A DNA stretch of 64,000 nt, from positions 1,240,001 through 1,304,000 of the forward strand of contig NC_014098.1 of the NCBI RefSeq assembly GCF_000092905.1, given 5' to 3'. The notes beneath the pieces are model-generated. The model had not been told where the DNA came from. It did not search any database and saw nothing but the letters and a program-made list of their open reading frames with translations. Numbering within the stretch: the first letter of the stretch is position 1; the number at the start of each line of letters is the position of its first letter. This document shows positions 21,362 through 44,770 of the stretch, piece after piece. A program made the translations under genes and the position numbers. Origin of the DNA: Kyrpidia tusciae DSM 2912 (GTDB taxonomy: Bacteria; Bacillota; Bacilli; Kyrpidiales; Kyrpidiaceae).

Positions 21362-21505
21362 AGATCTCCTCAGGAAGGTGATACGACCCTCGGAAGACCC
21401 GGCTGCACAAAATGTTTGCGGAACAGCTGCCAGGTTCGTTAGGATAGAGACAGAGAGCAACAAATCTTGACGCTGAAGCACGAAGGCGAATGGAGGAACA
21501 CAAAG

Positions 21506-22153
21506 ATGGAACCCATCTCGGTGCAGCCGATGCGCGAGCAGGTGGCGGCGATTTTGCGAAAAGCCATTTTTTCCGGTGAATTAAAGCCCGGCCAAGAGCT
21601 GGTGCAGGAAGAGATCGCGAATCAATTGGGCATTTCCCGGATGCCCGTGCGGGAGGCTTTTCAAATCCTCCAGAGGGACGGCTTAATCAGTTTACAGTCC
21701 CACCGCAAAGCGGTTGTCCGGGTCCTCACCGATGATGAGATTTCAGATCATTACGAGATTCGCGCTCTGCTGGAAGGGGAGGCGGCGGCCCGGGCCGCGA
21801 AACACCCGGGGGACCACGAGGAGATTCTCTCGGCCTTTGAGGACACGGTCAAAATGGCCGACCAAGGTTCGACCTCGGAGTTCGTTTCTGCCAACGAAGC
21901 GTTTCATCGCTCGATCTGGGAGGCGAGCCACAGCCCTCGGCTGGTGATGTTGTTGAACCTGTTGTGGAACGGACTGCCTCCGCACCTGCCCGAACTGTTG
22001 CCCCAGCAGCCTTCCCGGTCTGCTCAAGAGCATACCAGGATCGTCGAGGCGATCCGCGGCGGAGATGTCACCGCCGCTCGGACTGCCATGAGGGAACATG
22101 TGCTGAGGAGCTTGGAGGATTTTCTGAGTTATCGCGTGTCGTTCAAGTCGTGA
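21506..22153 (+). CDS. GntR family regulator, FadR/FCD subfamily
   Basis: Protein of about 215 residues: N-terminal winged helix (about 1-70; EEIANQLGISRMPVREAFQIL) and an all-helical FCD ligand domain with the family's metal-binding residues around NEAFHRSIWEASH and RTAMREHVLRSL. ATG 21506 has GGAGG 9 bases upstream. FCD regulators usually bind short palindromes and sense carboxylic acids or acyl-CoAs. It is the nearest candidate for the GGATCC-centred operator used by the catabolic units after 25 kb, a link made by inference only. Confidence 0.88.
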   Translation: MEPISVQPMREQVAAILRKAIFSGELKPGQELVQEEIANQLGISRMPVREAFQILQRDGLISLQSHRKAVVRVLTDDEISDHYEIRALLEGEAAARAAKHPGDHEEILSAFEDTVKMADQGSTSEFVSANEAFHRSIWEASHSPRLVMLLNLLWNGLPPHLPELLPQQPSRSAQEHTRIVEAIRGGDVTAARTAMREHVLRSLEDFLSYRVSFKS

Positions 22154-23945: not shown

Positions 23946-24943
23946 AAACCAATTTGAGTGAGGCCGTTTGGCGGGCGACCGAGATTCCCAATCTTCAGGT
24001 GTACGACACCCATCCGGCCCATACTGAGGATCCGGCAGAAGTTTTACGCGGACTGCGGCAATCACCGAAAACGATTCATTGCAAGTATTTTTATGACGAG
24101 CGGGGGTCCCGCTTATTTAAGGAAATCACCTTGCTCGACGAATATTATTTGACCAGGACAGAAATGTCGATTTTGCGGGAACATGCCGAGGAAATCCTCG
24201 AACTTTCCGGATCTGCCCCCTGTCTCGTGGAGCTCGGGAGTGTGGACGGGGACAAGGCAGATATCCTGCTTGCCTCTGCCTCGGAGGGAACGGTTTACAT
24301 ACCCGTGGACATCTCCCGGGAAGAGCTGTGGCGGGGGGCTGCCGCTGTGGCTGAGAAGCACCGCCATGTACAGGTAAAGGCGGTATGCGCAGATTATACC
24401 CATTTTTCCCCATTTTGGCGGTCCGAAGAAAACCGAAAACCTGTGCTCCTGTTTTATCCCGGATCTTCCATCGGCAACTACGATCCGCCGGAAGCCATAC
24501 AGTTGTTGCGCCGTTTCGCCTCGGAGCTGCTCAGGGGGGACGGGCTGCTGATCGGAGTGGACACGAAAAAGGAGAAAGAGGTGCTCTGGCGCGCCTACAA
24601 CGATGCCCGGGGCATCACGGCGGCCTTTAATCTCAATGCTCTTCAACACATCAATCATACGTTGGGGGCCGATTTCCAGATCGAGAACTTCCAGCACCAA
24701 GCCGTCTATCGCGAGTCGATGGACCGCATCGAAATGTATCTCATCAGCCGGGTGGAACAGAGGGTTCATCTGGCGGGCCAGGCGATCCACTTTCAAGCGG
24801 GGGAGCGCATCCACACAGAAAACTCTTATAAATACACGGTTGAAGCGTTCCAACGCCTGGCCCTGGAAGGCGGGTGGGAGCCCGTGCGGGTGTGGACGGA
24901 TCCCGAGGGTCTCTTTAGCGTCCACTATCTTCGCCGGTTGTGA
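23942..24943 (+). CDS. egtD: L-histidine N(alpha)-methyltransferase EgtD
   Basis: SAM-dependent methyltransferase (333 residues) that trimethylates histidine to hercynine. Motifs: KYFYDERGSRLFKEITLLDE near the N-terminus, LVELGSVDGDKADILL for SAM binding, and LLFYPGSSIGNYDP. The start overlaps the egtB stop. No egtA, egtC or egtE gene is present nearby, so this resembles minimal egtBD loci. Confidence 0.9.
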   Translation: MKTNLSEAVWRATEIPNLQVYDTHPAHTEDPAEVLRGLRQSPKTIHCKYFYDERGSRLFKEITLLDEYYLTRTEMSILREHAEEILELSGSAPCLVELGSVDGDKADILLASASEGTVYIPVDISREELWRGAAAVAEKHRHVQVKAVCADYTHFSPFWRSEENRKPVLLFYPGSSIGNYDPPEAIQLLRRFASELLRGDGLLIGVDTKKEKEVLWRAYNDARGITAAFNLNALQHINHTLGADFQIENFQHQAVYRESMDRIEMYLISRVEQRVHLAGQAIHFQAGERIHTENSYKYTVEAFQRLALEGGWEPVRVWTDPEGLFSVHYLRRL

Positions 24944-25031: not shown

Positions 25032-25060
25032 TTGAAGTAATATTGGATCCGATATAAAAT
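25032..25060 (+). promoter_or_regulatory. promoter of the first catabolic unit (25.1-31.2 kb)
   Basis: TTGAAG at 25032-25037 and TAAAAT at 25055-25060, 17-base spacer, with the GGATCC-centred operator lying between them. This is the most informative part of the 204-base gap after egtD; the first ~80 bases of the gap show nothing recognisable. Confidence 0.55.
25040..25055 (+). promoter_or_regulatory. GGATCC-centred operator, copy A
   Basis: ATATTGGATCCGATAT, a near-perfect palindrome (ATAT-Y-GGATCC-R-ATAT). Three more copies occur at 31202, 36391 and 44921, each before a catabolic unit. Position between -35 and -10 implies repression. Confidence 0.65.
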
Positions 25061-25147: not shown

Positions 25148-25645
25148 ATGGGATCGATTTACGAAGAAGAGACTCGATTTGGGAAGTTTTTCGAAGAATT
25201 GGAGGTTGGTGCTACCTACAAACATTATCCGGGGCGGACGATTACGGAAGTTGACAACATATGGTTTAGCCTATTGACGATGAATCAGCATCCGCTGCAC
25301 ATCGACCGTCATTATGGTGCCAACACGCAACATGGGCAATGTTTGGTCGTCGGCACTTTGGTATTCAGTATTGCTGTTGGGCTGAGCGTTCGCGGTATTA
25401 GTGGGAAGTGTATTGCAAACCTCGAGTACGAACAAGTTGAACATTTGGCACCAACTTTCGTCGGCGATACCATTTACGCGGAGACCACGGTCTTAGAAAA
25501 AAGAGAATCGACCTCCAAACCTGATCGCGGCATCGTGTTGGTGGAAACTCTGGCGAAAAATCAACACGGCACTCCGGTTTTGCGTTTCCGCCGCAAAGTG
25601 CTCGTGCCCAAACGATCACAAAATGAAGGGATGCCGAGCGGTTGA
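25148..25645 (+). CDS. MaoC-like dehydratase/hydratase (first of two)
   Basis: Hotdog-fold MaoC protein of 165 residues from ATG 25148. The hydratase motif region reads LTMNQHPLHIDRHYG, in which the canonical catalytic Asp (SGD-x-N-P-x-H) is replaced by Asn while the His is kept; a similar pattern occurs in mesaconyl/methylmalyl-CoA-type hydratases. It heads a seven-gene unit whose other members are acyl-CoA enzymes. It likely hydrates a branched or dicarboxylic enoyl-CoA, but the substrate is open. Confidence 0.82.
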   Translation: MGSIYEEETRFGKFFEELEVGATYKHYPGRTITEVDNIWFSLLTMNQHPLHIDRHYGANTQHGQCLVVGTLVFSIAVGLSVRGISGKCIANLEYEQVEHLAPTFVGDTIYAETTVLEKRESTSKPDRGIVLVETLAKNQHGTPVLRFRRKVLVPKRSQNEGMPSG

Positions 25646-25723
25646 ATCTAAAAACGATCCGGGTTTCATTCTGCGCGATCCCCATGTAGAGCGTGAGTAT
25701 GAATCCAAAGAGGAGTGAGTGTT

Positions 25724-26464
25724 ATGGATCTGACAGGAAAAATTGCGATCGTTACCGGAGCGGCCAAGGGGATCGGGAGAGAGATTGCTTTTCTTTTGGC
25801 TAAACATGGAGCGGATGTCACGGTTGCTGATTTGGACCAAGAGGGAGCAGACGCAGTTGCAGAGGAGATCCGGTCTCTTGGTCGAAGATCGCGAGGAGTC
25901 CAAGTCAATGTCGCCAATCGCCCCGAGGTAACCGCCATGGTTCGGGACACGATTGAACACTTCGGCGACCTGGATATCCTGGTCAACAACGCCGGCATCA
26001 CCCGGGATGCGATGCTTCATAAAATGACCGAAGAACAATTTGATGAAGTGATTGCCGTTCATATGAAGGGGACTTTCTTGTGTATGCAAGCGGCCGCCAT
26101 CCATATGCGTGAAAAAAGAAAAGGCAAGATCGTCAACATCTCGTCCATCGCCGGGAAAGTTGGGAATATCGGGCAGGTGAATTACTCCGGAGCGAAAGCG
26201 GGGATCGTAGGTATGACCAAGGCCGCCGCTAAAGAACTGGCCAAATACGGAGTATGTGTCAATGCTGTTCAACCGGGATTCATCGACACCGACATGACGA
26301 GAGCCGTTCCGGAAAAGGTTCGTCAGATCAAGATTGCCGAAATCCCCATGGAACGGATCGGCGTACCTCTGGATATTGCCAAAGCTGTTGTTTTTCTCAG
26401 TTCCGATTATTCGGATTATATGACCGGGACCGTGCTGGAGGTTACCGGCGGTCGTTACATGTAA
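25724..26464 (+). CDS. SDR oxidoreductase, FabG/3-hydroxyacyl-CoA dehydrogenase-like
   Basis: Classical short-chain dehydrogenase (246 residues). The cofactor motif TGAAKGIGREIA, NNAGITRD, the catalytic Ser in NISSIAGKVG, and YSGAK with Tyr and Lys are all present, and LEVTGGRYM ends the protein. AGGAG 8 bases upstream supports ATG 25724. In a bbs-like gene set it corresponds to one of the two SDR subunits that oxidise the beta-hydroxyacyl-CoA (BbsC/BbsD role), by inference. Confidence 0.87.
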   Translation: MDLTGKIAIVTGAAKGIGREIAFLLAKHGADVTVADLDQEGADAVAEEIRSLGRRSRGVQVNVANRPEVTAMVRDTIEHFGDLDILVNNAGITRDAMLHKMTEEQFDEVIAVHMKGTFLCMQAAAIHMREKRKGKIVNISSIAGKVGNIGQVNYSGAKAGIVGMTKAAAKELAKYGVCVNAVQPGFIDTDMTRAVPEKVRQIKIAEIPMERIGVPLDIAKAVVFLSSDYSDYMTGTVLEVTGGRYM

Positions 26465-26493
26465 CGGGTACGATGAGAACAGGAGGGATTTCT

Positions 26494-26907
26494 TTGGCGG
26501 AATACACAAAACCCTTGCCCGTAACCAAAGGAGTGGCATCGACATTTTGGGAGGGCCTTCGGGAAGAGAAATTTCTTTACCAACGCTGCAGAGGGTGTGG
26601 CCGGTCGGTGTTCTATCCTCGGGTTGTCTGTCCGCAATGCATGTCGGACGATCTGGTCTGGGAGGAGTCGTCCGGATTTGGCAATGTATACTCATATACG
26701 GTGGTTTATCGTCCTGTGGATCCGAGGTTTAAGCCGGATGCTCCCTATGTGGTTGCGCTGATTGACCTTGATGAAGGAATCCGGGTGATGGGCAATGTGG
26801 TGGGGCTTGACGACCCGGAGAATTTGCGAATGGGTCAACGGGTTCAGGTTGAATATCACCATGTTACCGATGAAGTGACCCTCCCGATGTTTCGGGTAGC
26901 GGAATAG
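26494..26907 (+). CDS. zinc-ribbon/OB-fold protein (DUF35)
   Basis: Protein of 137 residues with a four-Cys zinc ribbon (CRGCGRSVFYPRVVCPQC) and a following OB-fold, the DUF35 layout. An AGGAGGG box 6-7 bases before TTG 26494 indicates that start (MAEYTKPLPVTKG); the ATG at 26473 is upstream of that box. DUF35 proteins form complexes with thiolase-like partners, as BbsA does with BbsB or ChsH2 with Ltp2. The next gene encodes exactly such a partner, 13 bases away. Confidence 0.87.
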   Translation: MAEYTKPLPVTKGVASTFWEGLREEKFLYQRCRGCGRSVFYPRVVCPQCMSDDLVWEESSGFGNVYSYTVVYRPVDPRFKPDAPYVVALIDLDEGIRVMGNVVGLDDPENLRMGQRVQVEYHHVTDEVTLPMFRVAE

Positions 26908-26920
26908 GAGGTTCGCATGA

Positions 26921-28063
26921 ATGAGTATCCGGGGTCAGGTTGCCATTGTCGGAGTGGCTGAATCGGACTTGGGTCACGTTCCCCATATGTCGGCGATCGA
27001 CTTGATGGCCCAAGCCGCCAAGCGTGCGTTGGACGAAGCCGGGATCGACAAATCTGAGGTGGACGGATTGTTTTCAGCGTCGGCCTACTATTACATGCCG
27101 ACCCTGTCCCTGGGAGCATATTTGGGCATTGTACCCAAGTATACCGATTCCACCACGATCGGCGGATCGTCTTTTGTCTCTCATCTTTTGCACGCGGCGG
27201 CAGCCATTCAGGCGGGGCTGTGCCATGTGGCTCTGATTTGCTATGGGAGCACCCAGAGGACCGATTCCGGGAAATTGGTCAGCATGTCGGAGATGAGCCC
27301 TTTTGAAGAACCCTTCGGGTCGATGTACCCGATCAGCTCCTATGCTCTGGCGGCACGACGGCATATGGCGCAATTCGGCACCACGAGTGAGCAGTTGGCG
27401 GAAGTGGCGGTGGCGGCTCGGCAATGGGCGATGAAGAATCCCAAGGCGTTCAAGAGAGATCCCATCACGGTGGAGGACGTATTGGCCTCGCCGATGATCA
27501 GTTCTCCACTTCATAAACTGGACTGCTGTTTGGTGACGGACGGCGGCGGCGCCGTCGTCATGACATCCGCAGAAAGAGCCAAGTCCCTGAAGAAAAAACC
27601 TGTGTATCTGTTGGGGGCCGGCGAGGCGCATTTCCATCGTTCGATTTTGGAAATGCCGGATCTTACGGAGACGGCGGCGAAGATTTCCGGGCAAAGGGCA
27701 TACGAAATGGCCGGGGTTAAAGCTTCCGATATTGATCTGGTCATGTTATATGATGCGTTTACCATCAACGTGCTTCTGTTTCTTGAGGATCTCGGCTTTT
27801 GTAGGAAAGGAGAAGGAGGGGCATTTGTTCAGAACGGGCGGATCGCGCCGGGGGGCGAACTCCCGGTGAATACGAACGGCGGCGGACTTTCCTATTGCCA
27901 TCCGGGTATGTTAGGAATCTTTCTGATTATCGAGGCGGTGCGCCAACTGCGGGGGGAGTGCGGGGATCGTCAGTTGGCACAATGTGATGTGGCCCTTGTT
28001 CACGGCAACGGAGGAGTCTTATCGAGCCAAGTTACGGCGATACTGTCCCGAGAACCTGATTAA
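26921..28063 (+). CDS. thiolase-fold lipid-transfer-type protein lacking the canonical cysteines
   Basis: Thiolase-superfamily protein of 380 residues (VAIVGVAESDLG at the N-terminus). Where thiolases have the nucleophilic Cys in a CGSG loop, this protein reads TTIGGSSFVSH (Gly81-Ser84). The second catalytic Cys is replaced near VHGNGGVLSS, while a His remains in SYCHPGM. Together with the DUF35 gene upstream this resembles Ltp2-type retro-aldolases or BbsB-type subunits. It may cleave a C-C bond by an aldol rather than classic thiolytic mechanism. Confidence 0.83.
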   Translation: MSIRGQVAIVGVAESDLGHVPHMSAIDLMAQAAKRALDEAGIDKSEVDGLFSASAYYYMPTLSLGAYLGIVPKYTDSTTIGGSSFVSHLLHAAAAIQAGLCHVALICYGSTQRTDSGKLVSMSEMSPFEEPFGSMYPISSYALAARRHMAQFGTTSEQLAEVAVAARQWAMKNPKAFKRDPITVEDVLASPMISSPLHKLDCCLVTDGGGAVVMTSAERAKSLKKKPVYLLGAGEAHFHRSILEMPDLTETAAKISGQRAYEMAGVKASDIDLVMLYDAFTINVLLFLEDLGFCRKGEGGAFVQNGRIAPGGELPVNTNGGGLSYCHPGMLGIFLIIEAVRQLRGECGDRQLAQCDVALVHGNGGVLSSQVTAILSREPD

Positions 28064-28084
28064 TGGGATGGAAGAAAGAAGAGG

Positions 28085-29299
28085 GTGAACGGGTTGTTTC
28101 CTTTAACGGGGGTTCGAGTACTCGATTTGAGCAGGGTTCTGGCCGGACCTTTTTGCACGATGATCTTGGGTGACCTGGGTGCGGACGTCATTAAAGTCGA
28201 AAGCTTTGACGGCGATGAAACACGGCGGTACGAGCCGGTCGTAAACGGGGCCAGCTGTTATTTTCTTGCATTCAATCGCAATAAACGGAGTATAGCTGTA
28301 AATTTAAAGACTGAATCCGGCCGGGAAATTGTACGACGGCTCGCGAGAGAAGCCGATGTGCTGGTCGAGAATTTCCGATATGGAACGATGGAAAAATGGG
28401 GGCTCGGTTATGAGACCCTCAAGGCCGAAAATCCTGGGTTAATTTACTGTGCCGTCAGTGCTTTTGGTCGAAGCGGCCCTCTCAAGGAACTGCCAGGCTA
28501 CGACTTGATGATGCAGGCATTCAGCGGGCTGATGTCGGTGACCGGAATCGAAGATGGACCGCCGGTTCGGACCGGGTGGTCGATTACCGACTTAACAGCA
28601 GGAATGTGGGCGGCCATTGGGATTTTGAGTGCGTTGTTTGAAAGAAAAGCGACTGGGGAGGGGAGAATGATCGAAACCAGTCTCTTCGAAGGCCAGCTCG
28701 GTCTCATGACGTATTATGCCACGACATACTTGATTACGGGCGAGGTTGGGAAACGCTTGGGGGCTTCTCATTTCAGCATTGCCCCCTATCAAGCGTTTGA
28801 AACAGTCGATGGGTACGTCATCATCGCTGCGCCGAACGACGGTTTGTTTGCGCGATTATGCAACGTTCTCGGTGTTCCCCAATTGGCTGAACAAGACCGG
28901 TACAAGACCAATGCGCTTAGGGTTCAGCATCGCAGAGAACTGGCCGAAGAGTTGCAAGGGTTGGTAGGAGCGTTTACAACGGAGAAACTGCTTGAACTTC
29001 TGCGGGAGGCCGGAGTTCCCTGTGCGCCCATCCACACGATTGACCAGGTGCTGCAGCATGAGCAAACCCTGGCGCGGGAGATGGTTGTGACGAGTGAATA
29101 CCCCGGCATCGGTTCGTTTCGCATGACACGATCTCCCTTGCAGCCACCGGCCGAGGCCCACAAGACGGTGAGATTGCGTCCTCCGTTGCTCAGTGAGCAT
29201 GCCGAGGAGATCTTAGCTTCTGTCGGGTATGCTGACAAGGATATCAAACTTCTGCACCAGGAAGGTGCAGTGCTGTTACCGAAATCAGGGGGTGTTTGA
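28085..29299 (+). CDS. family III CoA-transferase (CaiB/BaiF), first of two
   Basis: CoA-transferase of 404 residues. The N-terminal VRVLDLSRVLAGPFCTMILG and GADVIKVE motifs are typical, and the catalytic Asp is found at residue 169 in WSITDLTAGMWA, the same number as in formyl-CoA transferase. It would transfer CoA from a donor such as succinyl-CoA to a free acid substrate. GTG start at 28085; its stop lies one base before the GTG start of the next gene. Confidence 0.9.
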   Translation: MNGLFPLTGVRVLDLSRVLAGPFCTMILGDLGADVIKVESFDGDETRRYEPVVNGASCYFLAFNRNKRSIAVNLKTESGREIVRRLAREADVLVENFRYGTMEKWGLGYETLKAENPGLIYCAVSAFGRSGPLKELPGYDLMMQAFSGLMSVTGIEDGPPVRTGWSITDLTAGMWAAIGILSALFERKATGEGRMIETSLFEGQLGLMTYYATTYLITGEVGKRLGASHFSIAPYQAFETVDGYVIIAAPNDGLFARLCNVLGVPQLAEQDRYKTNALRVQHRRELAEELQGLVGAFTTEKLLELLREAGVPCAPIHTIDQVLQHEQTLAREMVVTSEYPGIGSFRMTRSPLQPPAEAHKTVRLRPPLLSEHAEEILASVGYADKDIKLLHQEGAVLLPKSGGV

Positions 29300-29300
29300 T

Positions 29301-29771
29301 GTGGGTCTTTACTTTGAAGATTTCAATGAAGGAATGGAAGTTGTGTCCCCCGGTCGAACGGTGACCGAGGCGGACATTACGAATTTTGCAGGGTTGTCCG
29401 GTGACTACAACGAAATACACACAAACGAAGAATTTGCTGCTCAGACTCGATTTGGGCGGCGACTTGCCCACGGCTTGCTTGGGTTATCGATGTTGACAGG
29501 ACTCATGCAGCGTACGGGGATCATGGAAGGTACGGTCATTGCACTGCTTGGGATCAACAACTGGAGATTTGTGAAACCGGTGTTCATCGGCGATACGATC
29601 CATGCTCGTATGATCGTGACAGGGAAACGAGAGACTTCGAATCCTGCTCAGGGCATTGTCTTTCGCAAATTTGAATTGATTAATCAAAGAGGGGAAATCG
29701 TGCAGGAAGGTGAAATGCCGGTGATGGTACGGCGGAAAGGATCGGCAAGAGCGGCAAAGGAGGATGTGTAG
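29301..29771 (+). CDS. MaoC-like enoyl-CoA hydratase (second)
   Basis: Hotdog MaoC protein, 156 residues from GTG 29301 with a GGGGG box about 8 bases upstream. The R-specific hydratase motif is intact: LSGDYNEIHTNEEFA with Asp and His, followed by HGLLGLSMLTGL. It should add water to a trans-2-enoyl-CoA. Compared with the first MaoC of this unit, its catalytic Asp is preserved, so the two are not redundant copies. Confidence 0.86.
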   Translation: MGLYFEDFNEGMEVVSPGRTVTEADITNFAGLSGDYNEIHTNEEFAAQTRFGRRLAHGLLGLSMLTGLMQRTGIMEGTVIALLGINNWRFVKPVFIGDTIHARMIVTGKRETSNPAQGIVFRKFELINQRGEIVQEGEMPVMVRRKGSARAAKEDV

Positions 29772-29775
29772 TAAA

Positions 29776-31155
29776 ATGAGAGAGTCTTTGACATTTGAAT
29801 TGGCGGATTGGATTCGACAGGTACGGTTCTCATCGCTGCCTCCCGAGGTGGTGGATCTGACGAAAGTCACCGTTCTGGATTGGTTGGGCAGCGCCATTGC
29901 GGGATCTCAAACGCCTCCTTCGGCCATTGTTCGTCGCTTTGCAGCGGATCAAGGTGGAATTCCCCAGGCAACGGTGATCGGGGGCGGACAGCCGGCCCGC
30001 GTGACTGGAAAGGAACGACAGAGGACCTCGGCATTGTTAACAACATTTGTTAACGGCGTAAGTTCTCACATCGTGGAGTTAGATGATGTGCACAAGGGCG
30101 CCATCATTCATGCAGGTACGGCGGTGATCCCTGCAGCGATTGCCCTGGCGGAACAAGTGGCGGCATCCGGCCCACGTCTGATTGAGGCTGTCGTTGCAGG
30201 GTTCGAGGTGTGTATCCGGATTGGGGAGGCGGTGACCCCTTCTCACTACCGATATTTCCACACGACGGGCACTGTCGGGACTTTTGGGGCCGCCGCGGCT
30301 GCAAGTAAATTGTTGGATCTTTCCGTCGAACAAACGGTTCATGCTTTGGGAAATGCCGGAACCCAGGCGGCCGGTCTTTGGGAATTTATCGAAGACGGTG
30401 CCATGAGTAAGCATCTTCATTCGGGGAAAGCGGGCATGAATGGCCTTCTGGCAGCCTGCCTGGCCAAAGACGGGTTTACGGGAGCATCTCGGATTCTGGA
30501 AGGGGATAGAGGGTTTCTCCGGGCGATGGCTCAAGAATATGATGCCGGCAAGATTGTTGGCGGGCTCGGAATGGGATATAAGATTATGGAGAATTGCTTC
30601 AAGATCCATTCTTCCTGTCGTCATACTCATCATGCTGTCGATTTAGTGATTGAACTGGTGAACCGGAACAATTTGGTTCCGGAGAATATCGGAGGGATCG
30701 AGGTGAACACTTACCAAGTCGCTCTTGATATTACGGACAATCCCAATCCCGAAAGTGTTTACGCGGCCAAGTTTAGCCTACAGTTTTGCGCTGCCCTGGC
30801 AGCGGTCAAAAGACGTGCGTCACTTCGAGATTTCACCGAAGACACGTTGAAAGATTCAACGGTGCGGGGCCTGTTGAAGAAAGTCAGAGTAGCCGTGGAT
30901 CCGGTATGCCAATCGAGGTATCCTGAAAAATGGGGGGCGCGGGTCGTGATCCGAACCCGCGGCGGGGCGGAGTATACTGCGTCCACCGAGTATCCGAAAG
31001 GTGATTTCGAAAACCCCGTATCAACAGAAGAATTAATGAATAAATTCCGTGATCTTGTCGACGGGTGTATCTCAGCGGAGGAAGCCGAGCGATTGATCGG
31101 ACGAACGATGGCTCTGGACCGGCTGCCCGACGTGAGGGCATTATTTGCGGAATGA
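29776..31155 (+). CDS. MmgE/PrpD family protein
   Basis: Protein of 459 residues of the MmgE/PrpD fold, which includes 2-methylcitrate dehydratase and cis-aconitate decarboxylase. Recognisable segments: TVLDWLGSAIAGSQTPPS, GRFAADQGG-like region, SHIVELDDVHKGAIIHAGTA and KAGMNGLLAACLAKDGFTG. AAAGGAGG lies 12 bases before ATG 29776. No prpB or prpC is nearby, so 2-methylcitrate cycling is unlikely; a dehydratase or decarboxylase acting on a branched tricarboxylic or dicarboxylic intermediate is possible. It closes the first unit. Confidence 0.83.
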   Translation: MRESLTFELADWIRQVRFSSLPPEVVDLTKVTVLDWLGSAIAGSQTPPSAIVRRFAADQGGIPQATVIGGGQPARVTGKERQRTSALLTTFVNGVSSHIVELDDVHKGAIIHAGTAVIPAAIALAEQVAASGPRLIEAVVAGFEVCIRIGEAVTPSHYRYFHTTGTVGTFGAAAAASKLLDLSVEQTVHALGNAGTQAAGLWEFIEDGAMSKHLHSGKAGMNGLLAACLAKDGFTGASRILEGDRGFLRAMAQEYDAGKIVGGLGMGYKIMENCFKIHSSCRHTHHAVDLVIELVNRNNLVPENIGGIEVNTYQVALDITDNPNPESVYAAKFSLQFCAALAAVKRRASLRDFTEDTLKDSTVRGLLKKVRVAVDPVCQSRYPEKWGARVVIRTRGGAEYTASTEYPKGDFENPVSTEELMNKFRDLVDGCISAEEAERLIGRTMALDRLPDVRALFAE

Positions 31156-31193
31156 CCATGAACACGGAGAAGGGTGAAAGGTATCCCCCACGC

Positions 31194-31222
31194 TTGATCG
31201 GATAATGGATCCGATATACAAT
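31194..31222 (+). promoter_or_regulatory. promoter of the second catabolic unit
   Basis: TTGATC at 31194-31199 and TACAAT at 31217-31222 with a 17-base spacer; the operator copy B fills the spacer. Confidence 0.6.
31202..31217 (+). promoter_or_regulatory. GGATCC-centred operator, copy B
   Basis: ATAATGGATCCGATAT matches copy A (25040-25055) in 14 of 16 positions and lies between -35 and -10, as copies A and C do. Confidence 0.65.
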
Positions 31223-31287
31223 ATGTGTGTGCTGAGCCGATCCGGAATGTCTTTATAGGCAGTTTACAAACAAGGGAGAGGGGTACC

Positions 31288-32073
31288 ATGTCGTACGTAC
31301 GGTGGATCCGAAGATCGGAAGATCCTCGGATTGCCCAGATTGTGCTAAGTCGTGAACCGGTGATGAATGCGTTCAACACAGAGATGGCGAAAGAGTTGAT
31401 CTCCGCGTGCAGGGATATTCAGGGCTGCGACGATATCCGTGTTGTGGGACTGGTTTCCTCGGACAGCCGGTTTTTTTGTACCGGGGCCGATCTGAAAGAG
31501 CGCAACAATATGACCGATGAACAATGGAGGGCACAACATAAGCTTTTCGAAGAAATGTTTTATACGCTCGCTGATCTCCCGATGCCGACCATTGCTGTCA
31601 TCGACGGCTATTGTCTTGCAGGAGGCATGGAGTTGGCTCTGAACTGCGATCTTTGGGTGGTATCGGAAGATGCGGTGTTCGGGCTTCCCGAGGTTACGAG
31701 GGGAATCATGCCCGGTGGTGGAGGAACTCGCTTATTGGCGAAGAGAATCGGCGTCCACCGGGCAAAAGAAGTCATCCTGTCGGGACAAAAATTTACCGCT
31801 TGGCAAATGGCATCGATGGGGGCGGTGAACAGTCTCGTTCCTCGAGAACAGCTTGATACAGAATTCCTGAACCTGGCGAGAAGTATCAGCCAGAATGCAC
31901 CGCTGGCGGTTCAGTATAGTAAAGCGGCCATCGACGAGTTGTTTGGGATGCCCGATGCGGATGCCCGGATTCGCGAGTTGTACTGGTACAACAAGTGCGT
32001 CGACACGGAGGACAGGCTTGAGGGAATTCGTGCGTTCAATGAAAGGAGACCGCCGAATTTTGTGGGGCGGTAG
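31288..32073 (+). CDS. enoyl-CoA hydratase
   Basis: Crotonase-fold protein of 261 residues from ATG 31288 (GGGAGAGGGG upstream). Oxyanion-hole segments are RFFCTGADL and YCLAGGMELALNCDL. Both hydratase glutamates are present, in GGMELA and in FGLPEVTRGIMPGGGGT, so real hydration activity is likely. First gene of the second GGATCC-regulated unit, corresponding to a BbsH-like role. Confidence 0.88.
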   Translation: MSYVRWIRRSEDPRIAQIVLSREPVMNAFNTEMAKELISACRDIQGCDDIRVVGLVSSDSRFFCTGADLKERNNMTDEQWRAQHKLFEEMFYTLADLPMPTIAVIDGYCLAGGMELALNCDLWVVSEDAVFGLPEVTRGIMPGGGGTRLLAKRIGVHRAKEVILSGQKFTAWQMASMGAVNSLVPREQLDTEFLNLARSISQNAPLAVQYSKAAIDELFGMPDADARIRELYWYNKCVDTEDRLEGIRAFNERRPPNFVGR

Positions 32074-32102
32074 GGCGGATGGCAAGGAGGATGTGCAGCT
32101 CC

Positions 32103-33314
32103 ATGACAACGGACAAGGGGAATGGTGCCAAAGGACCGCTGACAGGGTTACGAATATTGGATTTTACCACGAACATCTCTGGACCGTCCGCTACCGCGAT
32201 CCTGGCAGATCTGGGGGCGGACGTCATTAAAATCGAACGGGTATCGAAGGGGGATGATGCGAGGCACATGAGTCCCCAGTGGAATGGCGAGTCGGCCTAT
32301 TTTCTCGCGATCAACCGGAATAAGCGATCGATGGCCTTGGATTTTACCAAACCGGAAGGCAGAGAGATCATCCTAAAACTGGTTGCCAGGTCGGACGTGG
32401 TGGTGGAAAACTTTCGTAAAGGTGTTCTGGAAAAGTATGGACTAGATAGTGTTACATTGGTGCGGCAGTACCCTTCTCTCGTGTATTGCTCGTTGACTGC
32501 GTATGGTGAAGCTGGAAAGGACCAATGGAAACCGGGATATGATGCTGTTCTGCAGGCCCGCACGGGCATCATGAGTATTACCGGGAGTCGGGAGGAAGAA
32601 CCCTCTCGCGCCGGAGTGTCGATTCTCGACGCCGGCAGTGCCATGTGGGCGGCGGTCGGCATCTTGTCTGCCTTATTTCATCGTGAGCGGACCGGGCGCG
32701 GACAAATTGTCGGAACGTCACTGTTTGAAACGGGTATCTATTGGATGAATTATCACCTGACTTCCTACCAAGCCACGAATCGCGACCCGGTACCTCAAGG
32801 GGCCAGACACATGGCCTTTGCCCCATACGGTACGTTTCAAACGGCAGATGATCTGATCCTTATCGGCATCTCCAATGATGTGTTGTTTGAGAAATTGACG
32901 GAGGCGATGGGGTGCGCTGAATTGGCGTCAGATCCAAGGTTTGCACACAACCCCGACCGTGTGGCGAATCGAGAGGAACTGGAACAGATTCTCAGTGCCC
33001 GGTTTCGACAGTATCCGTCCGCGGTGTGGATCGAACGTTTGGAGGCGGCCGGGATCCCGTGTTCGCCGGTTCAAAAAGTGTCTCGAGTTTATCGCGATCC
33101 GCAGACTGAGGCGCTCGATATGTTGCAAAAGGTGCAACACCCGCATATTCCGGAACTTCGCATACCGCGACTGCCGGTCCGTTTGACGGAGACGCCGGCG
33201 GAAATTCGCAGTCCAGCGCCGCTTCTTGGACAGCATACTAGGGTAATTCTAGAAGAGATCGGAGAGTCTCATCGCCTGCAGGAATTGGTCGACAAAGGCG
33301 TTGTGGGAGTTTAA
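32103..33314 (+). CDS. family III CoA-transferase (CaiB/BaiF), second of two
   Basis: CoA-transferase of about 403 residues from ATG 32103; AAGGAGG is 12 bases upstream, and an in-frame ATG at 32091 directly abuts it. Typical LRILDFTTNISGPSATAILA and GADVIKIERV segments, with catalytic Asp at about 176 in SILDAGSAMWA. Two paralogous family III transferases in one regulon recall the BbsE/BbsF heteromeric succinyl-CoA transferase, although here both keep the Asp. Confidence 0.88.
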   Translation: MTTDKGNGAKGPLTGLRILDFTTNISGPSATAILADLGADVIKIERVSKGDDARHMSPQWNGESAYFLAINRNKRSMALDFTKPEGREIILKLVARSDVVVENFRKGVLEKYGLDSVTLVRQYPSLVYCSLTAYGEAGKDQWKPGYDAVLQARTGIMSITGSREEEPSRAGVSILDAGSAMWAAVGILSALFHRERTGRGQIVGTSLFETGIYWMNYHLTSYQATNRDPVPQGARHMAFAPYGTFQTADDLILIGISNDVLFEKLTEAMGCAELASDPRFAHNPDRVANREELEQILSARFRQYPSAVWIERLEAAGIPCSPVQKVSRVYRDPQTEALDMLQKVQHPHIPELRIPRLPVRLTETPAEIRSPAPLLGQHTRVILEEIGESHRLQELVDKGVVGV

Positions 33315-33330
33315 GGGGAAGGAGAGTACA

Positions 33331-34497
33331 GTGAATCATGGGAATCAAGCGGAGTTGTACGAAGATCTGCGGCGCGGTGTCCGCAAGGTGTGCGAAAAAT
33401 TCCCGGATTCCTATTGGCGGGCATTGGACCAAGAGAGAGCCTACCCGGAGGAATTCGTCAATGCTTTGACTCAAGCCGGCTATTTGGCTGCGCTGATTCC
33501 TGAGGAATACGGCGGCGCGGGCCTCGGGATTACGGAAGCGTCGATCATCCTCGAGGAGGTCAATCGTTCCGGGGGGAACGCCGGTGCTTGTCATGCTCAA
33601 ATGTACACCATGGGCACATTGCTTCGCCATGGTTCAGAGGAACAAAAGCGTAAATATCTACCGAAAATTGCAGACGGTACTTTGCGGTTGCAGGCCTTCG
33701 GAATCACGGAGCCGAATACAGGTTCCGATACGACGCAATTGAAAACCACCGCGGTTCGTAAAGGCGACAAATATATCGTCAATGGACAAAAAGTATTCAT
33801 TTCCCGAACTGAATACTCGGACCTCATGTTGCTTTTGGTCCGGACCACCCCTGTAGACCAAGTCAAAAAACGTACGGAGGGCCTGTCGGTCCTGCTGGTG
33901 GACTTGCGGGAAGCCGTGGGAAAGGGACTGACGATTCGCCCGATCCGAACGATGATGAACCACTCCACGACGGAATTGTTTATTGAGGGTTTGGAAGTGC
34001 CGGCGGAGAATCTTATCGGAGAAGAAGGGAAAGGATTTCGCTATATTTTGGACGGAATGAACGCCGAACGAATCCTCATCGCCGCCGAGTGTATCGGAGA
34101 CGGGAGGTGGTTCATCGATCGGGCTGTCGGGTACGCGAAACAACGTGTCGTGTTCAATCGTCCAATCGGCCAAAACCAAGGCATTCAGTTCCCACTTGCC
34201 CGGGCTTATGTGAATGTGGAGGCGGCTGATCTGATGCGGTTTAAGGCTGCTGAACTCTTTGACAGCGGACAGCCGTGCGGCGCCCAGGCCAATATGGCGA
34301 AGCTGCTTGCTGCCGATGCGTCGTGGGAAGCTGCGAATGTGGCCCTTCAGACTCATGGAGGGTTTGGCTTTGCCGAAGAGTACGACGTCGAACGGAAATT
34401 TCGCGAGACCCGGTTGTACCAAGTGGCGCCGATTTCCACCAACTTGATCTTGTCTTTCGTCGCGGAACACGTCCTTGGCCTGCCGAGATCGTACTAA
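33331..34497 (+). CDS. acyl-CoA dehydrogenase (BbsG-position)
   Basis: Acyl-CoA dehydrogenase of 388 residues from GTG 33331 (AAGGAGA upstream). It has EEYGGAGLGITEASIILEE, FGITEPNTGSDTTQLKT and HGGFGFAEEYDVERKFRE. The usual C-terminal EGT with the catalytic Glu is replaced by RLYQVAPISTNLI, a variant seen in some dehydrogenase subfamilies where the base is placed elsewhere. It is in the middle of the second unit and would introduce the double bond hydrated by the neighbouring hydratases. Confidence 0.86.
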   Translation: MNHGNQAELYEDLRRGVRKVCEKFPDSYWRALDQERAYPEEFVNALTQAGYLAALIPEEYGGAGLGITEASIILEEVNRSGGNAGACHAQMYTMGTLLRHGSEEQKRKYLPKIADGTLRLQAFGITEPNTGSDTTQLKTTAVRKGDKYIVNGQKVFISRTEYSDLMLLLVRTTPVDQVKKRTEGLSVLLVDLREAVGKGLTIRPIRTMMNHSTTELFIEGLEVPAENLIGEEGKGFRYILDGMNAERILIAAECIGDGRWFIDRAVGYAKQRVVFNRPIGQNQGIQFPLARAYVNVEAADLMRFKAAELFDSGQPCGAQANMAKLLAADASWEAANVALQTHGGFGFAEEYDVERKFRETRLYQVAPISTNLILSFVAEHVLGLPRSY

Positions 34498-34550
34498 AGT
34501 ATCGTTGTTTTGTCCGGCTATCGACTTGGTACGGAACAGGAGTGGAGAAC

Positions 34551-35459
34551 ATGTGGCCGAAGAAAGTCTTCATTCGAGAAGTGGGGCCGCGGGACGGGTT
34601 GCAAAACGAAGGGACCTTCGTTGAAACAGACGATAAGGTCGAATGGATCAACCTACTGAGCACGAGCGGCATTACGGCCATCGAGGTCAGTTCTTTTGTG
34701 CATCCCAAATGGATTCCCGCTCTTCGGGACGCCGCCGATGTTTTCAGACGCATTCGAAGAGTTCCTGGGGTGACGTATTCGGCGCTCGTACCCAATGTCA
34801 GAGGATTGGAGCGGGGGCTGGAAGCGGGGATTGATGAAGCGGTTTTGTTTGTGTCCGCCAGTGAGTCGCACAATCTCAACAATGTGAACAAATCGATCCG
34901 AGAGTCGCTGATGGAAGCTGAACAGGTAGTAAACAGGTGTGCGGCTGCCGGAATTTCTGTTCGTGCCTACGTGTCCACCGTGTTTGGCTGTCCGTTTGAG
35001 GGAAGTGTATCGGTTTCGCAGACCATGTACATCGTGCAACGATTCGTGGACATGGGCATTCAAGACATCTCTCTGGCTGATACGATTGGTGTGGCCAATC
35101 CGGGACAGGTGGAACACGTGTTGGAGGAAGTTGAGAAAATAACGGCGATCGATCGTATCGCGCTGCACTTTCATGATACTCGTGGGCTGGGTCTTGCGAA
35201 TGTGGCAGTGAGTCTGAAAGCCGGCGTGACCCGGTTTGAATCCTCTCTAGGCGGGCTCGGCGGATGTCCATATGCGCCGGGGGCTCTCGGCAACATATGC
35301 ACCGAAGACTTGCTGTACATGCTGCACGGTATCGGCATCAATACCGGGGTTGATATGGACGTCATGATTCGCGCTGCCCGCATGATTCAGGATAAATTGG
35401 GCAAATCACTGCCGAGTTGCACGCTGCAGGTTTTGTCCAATCTACAACGTATCTCATAA
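34551..35459 (+). CDS. hydroxymethylglutaryl-CoA lyase-like enzyme
   Basis: HMGL-like TIM-barrel lyase of 302 residues from ATG 34551, with CAGGAG upstream. The N-terminal FIREVGPRDGLQNE contains the catalytic Arg and metal-binding Asp, FHDTRGLGLANV supplies metal-binding residues, and GGLGGCPYAPGALGN has the active-site Cys. It cleaves a 3-hydroxy-3-methyl (tertiary alcohol) acyl-CoA to acetyl-CoA plus a ketone. This points to a branched substrate or product in the pathway, unlike classic bbs operons. Confidence 0.9.
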   Translation: MWPKKVFIREVGPRDGLQNEGTFVETDDKVEWINLLSTSGITAIEVSSFVHPKWIPALRDAADVFRRIRRVPGVTYSALVPNVRGLERGLEAGIDEAVLFVSASESHNLNNVNKSIRESLMEAEQVVNRCAAAGISVRAYVSTVFGCPFEGSVSVSQTMYIVQRFVDMGIQDISLADTIGVANPGQVEHVLEEVEKITAIDRIALHFHDTRGLGLANVAVSLKAGVTRFESSLGGLGGCPYAPGALGNICTEDLLYMLHGIGINTGVDMDVMIRAARMIQDKLGKSLPSCTLQVLSNLQRIS

Positions 35460-35479
35460 AAGAATGGGGGCAACCGACT

Positions 35480-36232
35480 TTGGACCTTGGATTAAGGGGA
35501 AAAGTGGTGCTGGTCACCGGCGCAGCCAAGGGAATTGGCAAGGAAATCGCTCTGAGTTTGGCAAGGGAGGGGGCGGATGTAGCTGTCAATTACCTCTCCT
35601 CCCAAGGGGCGGCGGAAGAAACGGTGGGAGAGATTCGGAAGTTGGGAGGCAAAGCGGTGGCGGCGTGTGCCGACATTGCGAGCCTGGATCAGGTCCGATT
35701 GATGAAAGAAGAAATTGAAAGACAGTTGGGTCCGGTGTACGGGGTGGTCAACAATGCCGGCTATGCGCCCGCCAAAAAATTTTTTAAGACACAGCCTGAA
35801 GACTGGAAACGGGTAGTGGACGTTTGCTTTTATGGTACACTTCACCTCGCTTATGTATTTGTGCCTACAATGGTGGAGCAAGGCGAAGGAAAAATGGTAA
35901 ACCTCGTGGGCGATTCGGCCCGAATGGGCGATCCGAACCTGATTATATCTGCCGCCGCCCGCGGCGGGGTGATCAGCTTCAGCAAGTCGTTGGCCCAGGA
36001 TGTGGGAAAAAATGGGGTGCAGGTCAATGTTGTGTCTTTGGGGTTGGTGGATCAGGGATATCTGGGGTTTTCGGAAGAAACCTTGGAGAAGATACGGAAA
36101 AAGTACCCCGTTCAGCGCACTGGGGTGCCCAATGACGTTGCAGCTGCGTGCTTGTTCTTGCTGTCTCATCAAAGCAGCTGGATCACCGGCCAGGTACTTT
36201 CGGTCAATGGCGGTTACAGCATGATGGGGTAA
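35480..36232 (+). CDS. SDR oxidoreductase (second SDR of the unit)
   Basis: Short-chain dehydrogenase of 250 residues. TTG 35480 is the likely start (MDLGLRGKVV), with GGGGG 9 bases upstream. The cofactor motif TGAAKGIGKEIA and NNAGYAPAKKF are present, and GQVLSVNGGYSMMG ends the protein. The catalytic region reads VNLVGDSARMG and ISAAARGGVISF: the YxxxK motif is replaced by AAARGG. That suggests a non-catalytic SDR subunit, consistent with pairing to the active SDR at 25724 as in BbsC/BbsD. Confidence 0.84.
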   Translation: MDLGLRGKVVLVTGAAKGIGKEIALSLAREGADVAVNYLSSQGAAEETVGEIRKLGGKAVAACADIASLDQVRLMKEEIERQLGPVYGVVNNAGYAPAKKFFKTQPEDWKRVVDVCFYGTLHLAYVFVPTMVEQGEGKMVNLVGDSARMGDPNLIISAAARGGVISFSKSLAQDVGKNGVQVNVVSLGLVDQGYLGFSEETLEKIRKKYPVQRTGVPNDVAAACLFLLSHQSSWITGQVLSVNGGYSMMG

Positions 36233-36382: not shown

Positions 36383-36411
36383 TTGTATGGATGTTGGATC
36401 CGACGTATATT
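36383..36411 (+). promoter_or_regulatory. promoter of the flavoenzyme unit
   Basis: TTGTAT at 36383-36388 and TATATT at 36406-36411 with a 17-base spacer that contains operator copy C. Confidence 0.6.
36391..36406 (+). promoter_or_regulatory. GGATCC-centred operator, copy C
   Basis: ATGTTGGATCCGACGT shares the GGATCC core and most of the left arm with copy A; GTTGGATCCGAC is itself nearly palindromic. Confidence 0.6.
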
Positions 36412-36552: not shown

Positions 36553-38640
36553 GTGTATGAACTGCTTTTGTCTGCCGGCCGCATTGGCCGGCTGGTATTG
36601 CCAAACCGAGTCATCATGGGTTCGCTGCATCTCGGTTTTGAAAACTTTCCCAAAGGCGCCGAATATCTTGCTTCCTTTTATGCGGAGCGGGCAAAGGGGC
36701 GGGTGGGACTGATCATCACCGGAGGGTCGGCTGTAACTCCGGAGGGGGCCAGCGATTTACAGTTTTCGAGGATCTGGGATTCTACGGAAAGCGATAAATT
36801 TGTTAGAATTACGACAGCAGTCCATCAGGCGGGTGGCAGGATTGCCCTGCAGCTGTTCCACGCGGGCCGGTATGCCAGGGAGGACAAGACCGGATTGCAG
36901 CCGGTGGCACCGTCCGCAGTTCCAACGCGGATGAGCCCGACTTTGGCGAGGGAATTGCGGGAGGACGAGGTCGAGGCGATCATCGAAGCATTCGGAAGGG
37001 GCGCGGCTCTGGCCAAGGAATACGGGTTTGACGCCGTGGAGATCATGGGGTCGGAAGGATATCTCATCAATCAATTTCTTTCCCCGGTGACGAATCGGCG
37101 GGAGGATGGATGGGGAGGGACATTTGAAAAGCGGGCGCGTTTTGGCCTGGAAGTTGCCCGCTCCGTAAGGCGCTGTGCAGGTGAAGACTTTCCGGTGATT
37201 TTTCGGATGTCGGGTCTGGATTTGATCCCGGACAGTACAACGTGGGAAGAGACGGTGCGTTTTGCCAGGCTGCTTGAAGAAAATGGGGTGGATGCATTAA
37301 ACATCGGCATCGGCTGGCACGAGTCGGCGATTCCCACCGTGCAGGCCCATGTTCCGCATGCCGCTTTTGCCCATGTGGCCGGGGAAATCAAGAGGGCCGT
37401 CTCGATCCCTGTCGTGGTGAGTAACCGGATCAACAGGCCGGAGTTGGCCAATCGCCTCCTGGCCGAAGGGGTGGCGGATTTTGTATCGATGGCCCGACCG
37501 TTTCTGGCTGATCCGCACTTTGTTCGCAAGGTGGAAGAAGGCCGTCCGGAATCCATCAATACCTGCATTGCCTGCAACCAGGCATGCCTGGACAAGACGT
37601 TCACGCACCGTCCGGTGTCCTGTTTGGTGAATCCACAGGCCGGCAGGGAGAGCCTGCTGCCGGTTGTTAGGACAGAGAACCCCATGCGGGTGGCCGTGGT
37701 CGGCGGCGGGCCTGCCGGAATGGAAGCTTGCCGGGTGCTGGCGCTGAGGGGTCACAGGGTGACACTGTTTGAGAAAGAAAGGAGCCTGGGAGGGCAGTTT
37801 CGCTGGGCCGGCCGGGTGCCGGGGAAAGGGGATTTTGTCCGGACGATTGAGTATTACAGCCATGAGCTGAACCGCCTTGGTGTAGATGTACGGCTTCATA
37901 CGGCGGTGAGCGGCTCGGTGTTGCAATCGTTTGATGCCTGTGTACTGGCGACTGGGGTGGTTCCCCGTTCCGTTTCAATGCCCGGCTCAGACCTTCCACA
38001 TGTATGTTACTATACAGATTATTTTGAGGATCGCGCGGTTGTGGGAGAGAAAGTGGTGGTGATTGGAGCCGGGGGGATTGCCCTGGATGTGGCCTTGCGC
38101 TTAACCGAAGGAAAAATTTCCCCTGAAGTGGCTCTTTTTCTTCTGGAACAGGCTGTGGAGGATGTTTCATCGATTTCAGAACGATTACGGCCGCGCAGGA
38201 AAGTGACCCTTTTGCGCCGTGGTCGCCGCGTGGCGGAACATGTGGGGCGGACGACGCGCTGGGTGGTGTTGAATGAACTCGCCCGTCGTGGTGTGGATAT
38301 CCGCACTGAAATCCGGTACAAGGCCATTGTACCGGGCGGCGTCGAAATTGAGGAAAAGGGGAAATCTGTTGTACTTCCCGCCGACTCGGTGATCATTGCC
38401 GCGGGACAGGAATCCAACCGCACTCTTCTGGAAGAACTGACGGCGCTGGGATTTATCCGGCTGCAGATCCCAGATGCCCAGACTTGGCTTAATGGAGAGC
38501 GGTTAGAACCACTGGTTCCATCGCTGCCACCTGTTCAAGAGGGAAAACCGCTTTTTGTAATCGGGGGCGCGAATGACCCGGAGGCACTGGACGCCGAGAG
38601 GGCGATTCTAGAGGGGACCTTGGCCGGAAGGCTGATCTGA
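36553..38640 (+). CDS. NADH:flavin oxidoreductase / 2,4-dienoyl-CoA reductase-like flavoenzyme
   Basis: Large protein of 695 residues. The N-terminal old-yellow-enzyme barrel (about 1-340) shows LVLPNRVIMGS and ALQLFHAGRYA. A Cys cluster for a 4Fe-4S centre follows, with TCIACNQAC and a later Cys in RPVSCLVNP. The C-terminal FAD/NAD half starts at VAVVGGGPAGMEACRVLA and includes VVVIGAGGIALDVALRL. This is the FadH/trimethylamine-dehydrogenase architecture, suited to reducing conjugated or ring enoyl-CoA double bonds. GTG start at 36553. It leads the third unit. Confidence 0.9.
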   Translation: MYELLLSAGRIGRLVLPNRVIMGSLHLGFENFPKGAEYLASFYAERAKGRVGLIITGGSAVTPEGASDLQFSRIWDSTESDKFVRITTAVHQAGGRIALQLFHAGRYAREDKTGLQPVAPSAVPTRMSPTLARELREDEVEAIIEAFGRGAALAKEYGFDAVEIMGSEGYLINQFLSPVTNRREDGWGGTFEKRARFGLEVARSVRRCAGEDFPVIFRMSGLDLIPDSTTWEETVRFARLLEENGVDALNIGIGWHESAIPTVQAHVPHAAFAHVAGEIKRAVSIPVVVSNRINRPELANRLLAEGVADFVSMARPFLADPHFVRKVEEGRPESINTCIACNQACLDKTFTHRPVSCLVNPQAGRESLLPVVRTENPMRVAVVGGGPAGMEACRVLALRGHRVTLFEKERSLGGQFRWAGRVPGKGDFVRTIEYYSHELNRLGVDVRLHTAVSGSVLQSFDACVLATGVVPRSVSMPGSDLPHVCYYTDYFEDRAVVGEKVVVIGAGGIALDVALRLTEGKISPEVALFLLEQAVEDVSSISERLRPRRKVTLLRRGRRVAEHVGRTTRWVVLNELARRGVDIRTEIRYKAIVPGGVEIEEKGKSVVLPADSVIIAAGQESNRTLLEELTALGFIRLQIPDAQTWLNGERLEPLVPSLPPVQEGKPLFVIGGANDPEALDAERAILEGTLAGRLI

Positions 38641-43898: not shown

Positions 43899-43991
43899 GT
43901 TGGGATCCATAATCGCGGGCGCGAAAGCCGGCGGACGGGATTGGGAGAAAGAGCTGAATCGCATCTTAATTAAGTGGGGGGCGGCGACAAA

Positions 43992-44744: not shown

Positions 44745-44770
44745 GAGTGGGGAAGATAGCAGGCTGCGTG

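Follow-up and report, generated by a model that had tools for sequence, protein, structure and literature searches.

Kyrpidia tusciae DSM 2912 is a thermophilic, aerobic knallgas bacterium that comes from acidic solfataras (PMC3236038). Its chromosome carries a gene cluster that we read, with moderate confidence, as a variant of the methylsuccinate/itaconate pathway in Bacilli, one in which the final cleavage would be performed by an enzyme of the 3-hydroxy-3-methylglutaryl-CoA (HMG-CoA) lyase type. The cluster lies at positions 25148 to 36232 of the window analyzed here, a 64,000-nucleotide stretch (bases 1,240,001 to 1,304,000) of the complete 3,384,766-bp chromosome; coordinates below are those of the window unless noted otherwise. 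Gene families were assigned with Pfam and NCBIfam models, and all cluster genes are intact and on the plus strand. They form two units, unit 1 extending from MaoC1 to an MmgE/PrpD protein and unit 2 from the enoyl-CoA hydratase ECH to the short-chain dehydrogenase/reductase SDR2. Proteobacteria are already known to have this type of pathway (PMC12290011, PMC9875883); the novelty suggested in the initial annotation of this DNA may lie in the hydratase/lyase variant.

In the proposed route, the MmgE/PrpD protein (29764 to 31155) would epimerize (S)- and (R)-methylsuccinate, and a CoA-transferase, most likely CoAT2 (32079 to 33314), would convert methylsuccinate to methylsuccinyl-C4-CoA. The acyl-CoA dehydrogenase ACD (33331 to 34497) would oxidize this product to mesaconyl-C4-CoA, which the crotonase-type ECH (31288 to 32073) would hydrate to the tertiary alcohol citramalyl-CoA. 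Cleavage by HMGL (34551 to 35459), a protein of the HMG-CoA lyase family, would then yield acetyl-CoA and pyruvate, with HMGL standing in for the CitE-type (S)-citramalyl-CoA lyase, and MaoC1 (25148 to 25645) may contribute a branch as an itaconyl/mesaconyl-CoA hydratase. The initial annotation had anticipated that the HMG-CoA lyase handles a tertiary-alcohol intermediate; we judge this idea to be right and propose citramalyl-CoA as that intermediate.

The probable methylsuccinate core

The dehydrogenase provides a link to a characterized pathway. ACD is 70.5% identical to Pseudomonas aeruginosa PA0879, represented here by a plasmid copy (locus L097, an Ich-Mcd-VOC-Msi-Ict-Ccl cluster) that we equated with PA0879 because its gene order matches PA0878-PA0883, the locus tags in the record being different. 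PA0879 and its Cupriavidus necator homologue have been assayed as (RS)-methylsuccinyl-C4-CoA dehydrogenases (Mcd), and PA0881 and its C. necator homologue have been assayed as (S)-(R)-methylsuccinate isomerases (PMC12290011); the growth genetics of the Proteobacterial pathway are also available (PMC9875883). In a tree of 52 sequences, ACD falls with PA0879 in a 35-member clade (support, 100/97) that also holds ACDs adjoining PrpD, CoA-transferase, MaoC, and/or CitE genes in Deinococcus, Cupriavidus, Variovorax, Paracoccus, and Rubrobacter. ACD is an orthologue of the Mcd of the PA0878-PA0883 pathway, with the same activity predicted from sequence, and its placement bears out the earlier expectation of a pathway for an alkyl-substituted dicarboxylic acid. 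It is 88% identical to its counterpart in the sister species EA-1.

The MmgE/PrpD protein, 40.8% identical to PA0881, groups with it in a clade with 96/92 support, apart from iminodisuccinate epimerase and Bacillus subtilis MmgE. It retains the same seven catalytic positions as PA0881 (H, E, H, Y, H, K, and K), including a Glu where iminodisuccinate epimerase has Asp88, and is the predicted methylsuccinate isomerase (Msi) of the cluster. The initial annotation had taken this gene as a sign of a branched di- or tricarboxylate; the branched dicarboxylate agrees with the PA0881 clade, while we rejected the methylcitrate dehydratase and cis-aconitate decarboxylase types, as the PrpD models reached at most 47 bits against cutoffs of at least 458 and cis-aconitate decarboxylases scored below other relatives. 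The position of the protein in the tree, away from iminodisuccinate epimerase and B. subtilis MmgE, also counted in this rejection.

CoAT1 (28085 to 29299) and CoAT2 are both family III CoA-transferases closest to succinate-hydroxymethylglutarate CoA-transferase (SUGCT), at 324 and 263 bits, respectively; BbsE/F score 183 and 138 bits for CoAT1, and the best Bbs chain scores 172 bits for CoAT2. CoAT2 is 72 to 74% identical to that of EA-1 and 58% identical to that of Bacilli locus L086, and ECH, whose closest model is Bacillus PRK07657, is 74% identical to the EA-1 protein. MaoC1 belongs to the itaconyl/mesaconyl-CoA-hydratase-like Ich/RipB group; it scores 163.7 bits against NF038241 (RipB_Ich), under the cutoff of 340, and shares 45 to 48% identity with the MaoC proteins that Deinococcus, Rubrobacter, and Bacilli encode in their Mcd/Msi clusters. 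To judge from these relationships, the substrate class very probably comprises methylsuccinate and small branched acids related to it. An itaconate-only cluster of the RipABC type was ruled out, as Mcd and Msi are present and Ccl is absent.

Compared with the P. aeruginosa PA0878-PA0883 and C. necator clusters (Ich-Mcd-Msi-Ict-Ccl), the K. tusciae cluster thus shares Mcd (70%), the isomerase-clade MmgE/PrpD protein (41%), a family III CoA-transferase, and an Ich-like MaoC protein. It differs in having an HMG-CoA-lyase-family enzyme and a crotonase instead of the CitE-type lyase, and it adds a second CoA-transferase, the genes SDR1-DUF35-THL-MaoC2, and a GntR/FCD regulator.

Proposed replacement of CitE by an HMG-CoA lyase

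HMGL belongs to the HMG-CoA lyase fold family, scoring 423.9 bits against NF004283 (cutoff, 246) and 361 bits against 1ydo, the B. subtilis HMG-CoA lyase, with the motifs RDGLQNE, HFHDTRG, and GGLGGCPYAPG retained in the alignment. A CitE query had no match in the complete K. tusciae genome, and a profile search for the CitE type returned only one partial HpcH/HpaI aldolase-like frame, so that the CitE-type (S)-citramalyl-CoA lyase (Ccl) of the PA0878-PA0883 pathway has no counterpart there. Among 15 Mcd-bearing genomes searched, all four that lack CitE (K. tusciae, G342, G378, and G369) hold HMGL in the Mcd cluster.

The comparison with EA-1 (genome size, 3,352,175 bp) places the two lyases at one locus, CitE being found in EA-1 and the HMG-CoA lyase in K. 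tusciae. The EA-1 interval reads GntR (93% identity), CitE, an isopropylmalate/tartrate-dehydrogenase-family gene, the operator, ECH, CoAT2, and Mcd, and it is flanked, as in K. tusciae, by S-adenosylmethionine methyltransferase and HemQ/peroxiredoxin genes. The only HMG-CoA lyase of EA-1 is of the leucine type (53% identical) and lies away from this locus; THL and PrpD were both absent from the EA-1 genome.

K. tusciae has its own leucine-type HMG-CoA lyase (53%) elsewhere on the chromosome, at 1,880,090, which presumably serves leucine catabolism. As this copy adjoins a carboxyltransferase gene, a leucine-pathway role for HMGL of the window is less likely. HMGL shares the fold and catalytic-residue motifs of the leucine enzymes B. 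subtilis YngG and human HMG-CoA lyase, but its context lacks methylcrotonyl-CoA carboxylase. A third HMG-CoA-lyase-family gene (L154; G000 2,171,901 to 2,174,103) is divergent from genes for a family III CoA-transferase, an MFS transporter, and a GntR regulator; it possibly belongs to another acid pathway.

The lyase replacement would have a stereochemical consequence. The CitE-type enzymes Rv2498c and PA0883 both act on (R)-HMG-CoA, and (S)-citramalyl-CoA is a further substrate of Rv2498c; TIM-barrel HMG-CoA lyases cleave (S)-HMG-CoA; and in spatial terms the S configuration of citramalyl is the equivalent of the R configuration of HMG (PMC6689899). By these specificities, an HMG-CoA-lyase-type enzyme should take (R)-citramalyl-CoA. 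We consider this enantiomer the probable intermediate because crotonases and HMG-CoA lyases have a facial geometry opposite to that of the MaoC and CitE enzymes. Crotonases and MaoC hydratases yield opposite hydroxyl configurations, which fits the pairing of crotonase with HMGL and of MaoC with CitE. (R)-Citramalyl-CoA lyase, the predicted activity of HMGL, is a named activity (EC 4.1.3.46), and the Chloroflexus enzyme, described by Friedmann et al. in 2007 (work cited in PMC3832036), reportedly is a member of the HMG-CoA lyase family. The proposed reaction would be alike in the two organisms, and the Chloroflexus lyase acts in the 3-hydroxypropionate bicycle, whereas the predicted K. tusciae lyase lies beside Mcd and Msi.

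Hydratase and lyase pairing at Bacilli Mcd loci

Of 399 Bacilli genomes, 26 have a close Mcd, and we counted window-like genes around 24 such loci, using Fisher tests uncorrected for relatedness. MaoC and crotonase are close to mutually exclusive: 7 loci have only MaoC, 15 have only crotonase, 1 has neither, and the sole locus with both is that of K. tusciae (P = 1.7 × 10−4). HMGL is confined to crotonase loci (11/16, versus 0/8 without crotonase; P = 0.002). The pairing of MaoC with CitE is looser (6/8 versus 5/16 in Bacilli; P = 0.08) and reaches a P value of 0.007 over 39 loci when Proteobacteria are included. At least three lineages are represented among the HMG-CoA lyases linked to these clusters, and the crotonase-HMGL pairing therefore seems to have arisen more than once. 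In the main Bacilli subclade, Mcd is 79 to 90% identical across both arrangements, from which we argue that the dehydrogenase product, mesaconyl-C4-CoA, would be the same for both.

These patterns lead us to propose, tentatively, that a mirror-image methylsuccinate route is widespread in Bacilli, in which a crotonase would form (R)-citramalyl-CoA for cleavage by an HMG-CoA-lyase-family enzyme, replacing the (S)-route of MaoC and CitE. The lyase would have been recruited from several HMG-CoA lyase lineages, and K. tusciae and EA-1 may capture the swap at one syntenic locus.

Several observations weigh against the proposed route and its mirror-image extension. The loci are phylogenetically nonindependent, and in Bacilli alone the MaoC-CitE pairing has the strength of a trend. 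Five Mcd loci, that of EA-1 among them, have a crotonase without a nearby HMGL, and HMGL and CitE occur together at four loci (L086, L145, L151, and L153). In K. tusciae itself, the presence of both MaoC1 and the crotonase makes the hydratase ambiguous, and the retro-aldolase-like THL is a rival candidate for the lyase. CoAT1 and CoAT2 are only ∼35% identical to Ict. True HMG-CoA lyases such as 1ydo and the lyases linked to Mcd clusters are about equally close to HMGL, and the HMGL tree gives it no firm placement.

Two other arrangements were seen among the Bacilli loci. At L086 (4719 to 5882), a second MmgE/PrpD frame continues in frame into a fumarase beta-like segment and is truncated; it appears to be a copy in decay. 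L078 to L081 and L084 share a conserved operon with GntR, CitE, a SucCD-like ligase, MmgE/PrpD (homologues at 50 to 55% identity), succinate dehydrogenase-like subunits, a class I fumarase, and a dicarboxylate transporter, which looks like a ligase-dependent C5-dicarboxylate pathway.

A shared operator

The gene families, the two units, and the common operator described in the initial annotation are all present. The palindromic operators ATATTGGATCCGATAT (25040 to 25055, plus strand), upstream of MaoC1, and ATAATGGATCCGATAT (31202 to 31217, plus strand), upstream of ECH, are the only sites with zero or one mismatch in the 3.38-Mb genome, the former being the sole site with none; the remaining operator-like sites inspected in the genome are inside or near unrelated genes. 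A weaker third copy, ATGTTGGATCCGACGT (36391 to 36406, plus strand), precedes a gene on the plus strand for an OYE/BaiCD-like flavoenzyme (36553 to 38640), possibly an enoate reductase of the same regulon, and for this reason the regulon probably extends beyond 36232.

Allowing up to three mismatches, the palindrome ATATTGGATCCAATAT occurs at 22 sites across 23 Mcd loci of Bacilli, whereas a Markov version of shuffling predicts 2.6. Many copies are located 28 to 130 bp upstream of Mcd, MaoC, ECH, CitE, or HMGL genes, and one precedes ECH in EA-1. This enrichment ties the K. tusciae operators to the regulon of the Bacilli Mcd loci. The likely operator-binding protein is the GntR/FCD regulator encoded at 21467 to 22153 (plus strand; GntR and FCD domains), as its EA-1 orthologue (92 to 93% identical) lies within the cluster, adjoining CitE-ECH-CoAT2-ACD. 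Such a repressor, binding ATATTGGATCCRATAT, would control the cluster. The ergothioneine genes egtB and egtD (22650 to 24943) separate the GntR gene from the cluster and are not found at that place in EA-1.

The upstream unit and alternative readings

Unit 1 contains a second set of enzymes around the thiolase-fold protein THL (26921 to 28063). THL is closer to the steroid retro-aldolases Sal (239 bits) and Ltp2 (171 bits) than to BbsB (147 bits), and in the alignment it has Gly where BbsB has its Cys nucleophile and YDAF (from Y277) where BbsB has HDAF. In Ltp2 and Sal, the tyrosine of the YD motif acts as the catalytic base (PMC12329534). THL Tyr325 aligns with the catalytic acid Tyr344 of Ltp2; BbsB also has Tyr there, so the diagnostic features are the missing Cys and the YD motif only. 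The adjacent DUF35 protein (26494 to 26907), a zinc ribbon plus OB fold and the partner of THL, has its closest solved relatives in the partners of Sal (91 bits) and Ltp2 (80 bits), with BbsA at 28 bits. THL therefore has the sequence features of the Ltp2-ChsH2 and Sal-Shy steroid side-chain retro-aldolases: a Cys-less thiolase fold, YDxF, a DUF35 partner, and nearby MaoC hydratases. Unlike in those systems, DUF35 is a separate protein, the context is nonsteroid, and the motif is YDAF rather than YDHF or YDCY. The unit also encodes SDR1 (25730 to 26464), a FabG-like 3-oxoacyl/3-hydroxyacyl-CoA oxidoreductase for which BbsD ranks 23rd among solved structures, and MaoC2 (29301 to 29771), an R-type enoyl-CoA hydratase with the motif GDYNEIH.

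The SDR1/DUF35-THL/MaoC2/CoAT1 region is probably a portable hydration/retro-aldol module, since a MaoC-MaoC-CoA-transferase-OB fold-thiolase cassette recurs on the Achromobacter plasmid pA82 and SDR1-DUF35-THL recurs with a ligase and MaoC2 in Alicyclobacillus tolerans. The module could supply the core with C5 dicarboxylates or follow MaoC1 as a second lyase for citramalyl-CoA. Relative to EA-1, the K. tusciae interval is enlarged to ∼40 kb and contains insertion sequence (IS) elements, ergothioneine genes, and alicyclic-acid genes, with a G+C content of 0.53 to 0.57 versus 0.606 in the left flank. Given this enlargement and the absence of THL and PrpD from EA-1, unit 1 was probably acquired, with PrpD and MaoC1 arriving as part of it.

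It is conceivable, if rather unlikely, that unit 1 is a separate pathway with only the regulator in common. CoAT1 would activate an acid, MaoC would hydrate the enoyl-CoA, DUF35/THL would make a retro-aldol cut or serve as a citramalyl-CoA lyase after MaoC1, and SDR1 would handle the product. The retro-aldolase signature of THL, both recurring cassettes, and the EA-1 locus, which holds the unit 2 core without THL and PrpD, agree with such a separate pathway; PrpD and MaoC1, which are associated with Mcd elsewhere, nevertheless sit in unit 1 under the same operator and tie it to C5 dicarboxylates.

We find it unlikely that the whole island from 22 to 61 kb is devoted to an alicyclic or terpenoid acid whose ring would be opened by BadH/BadI to supply the two units with branched dicarboxylates. 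Genes resembling BadI, BadH, and ACD2 are indeed located at 43098 to 46186, with a weak operator-like site, ATATTGGATCCGTTAG (44921 to 44936, minus strand), upstream of ACD2, which suggests a cyclohexanecarboxylate-type ring opening possibly under the cluster's regulator. Combinations of BadI and BadH with PrpD, CoAT2, HMGL, and ECH in Bacilli locus L082, and with THL and Mcd in Paraburkholderia loci, point the same way. However, IS elements separate the two parts of the island, the site near ACD2 is weak, and the adjoining acyl-CoA ligase frame is broken. That ligase (46187 to 47297) is split across frames, the open frame being only the C-terminal part (46632 to 47297). The window BadI and BadH proteins are 60 to 68% and 53 to 68% identical, respectively, to those of Paraburkholderia L004 and L082. 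The L082 cluster (G018 contig 63, 671 to 15753) comprises PaaC-like, PaaD-like, BadI, BadH, PrpD, CoA-transferase, HMG-CoA lyase, ACD, and crotonase genes, with a 44% homologue of SDR2 (35480 to 36232), and may encode a new route of ring degradation that leads to a branched dicarboxylate. A Castellaniella-type limonene pathway (PMC4109377), prompted by BadH, BadI, and OYE, had no support at the cluster coordinates.

Quite improbable, in our view, is a crotonase-HMGL half acting on substrates one carbon longer, with CoAT2 activating 3-methylglutarate, 3-methylglutaconate, or HMG, ACD and ECH leading to HMG-CoA, and HMGL releasing acetyl-CoA and acetoacetate. The closest relatives of HMGL (B. 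subtilis HMG-CoA lyase), of both CoA-transferases (SUGCT), and of ECH (a Bacillus enoyl-CoA hydratase model) would suit this chemistry. It is opposed by the positions of ACD in the methylsuccinyl-CoA dehydrogenase clade, irrespective of partners, and of PrpD in the methylsuccinate-isomerase clade, and by EA-1, which pairs the same ACD, ECH, and CoAT2 with CitE, not HMGL.

Benzylsuccinate-type (bbs) beta-oxidation of an aryl- or long alkyl-succinate, the likeness drawn in the initial annotation, is scarcely credible: the families match those of bbsA-H at the superfamily level, but each member tested is nearer to another subfamily, with the BbsA and BbsB models at 35.1 and 162 bits (cutoffs, 250 and 750), CoA-transferases nearer to SUGCT, a thiolase lacking the Cys nucleophile, a FabG-like SDR1, and a dehydrogenase in the methylsuccinyl-CoA clade, and, as had been noted before, no glycyl-radical enzyme (no Gly_radical domain match genome-wide, hence no benzylsuccinate synthase) in this aerobic host.

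Implications

Assignment of the methylsuccinate isomerase and dehydrogenase dates only from 2023 to 2025 and concerned Proteobacteria with a CitE-type lyase. Our analysis would extend the pathway, with a GntR operator, to many Bacilli and suggests that there are two stereochemical forms of its final two steps. This reading predicts growth on (R)-citramalate, on which the Pseudomonas cluster expressed in Pseudomonas putida fails to support growth (PMC9875883). If true, it would provide a function outside leucine catabolism for many genes annotated as "HMG-CoA lyase" and "enoyl-CoA hydratase."

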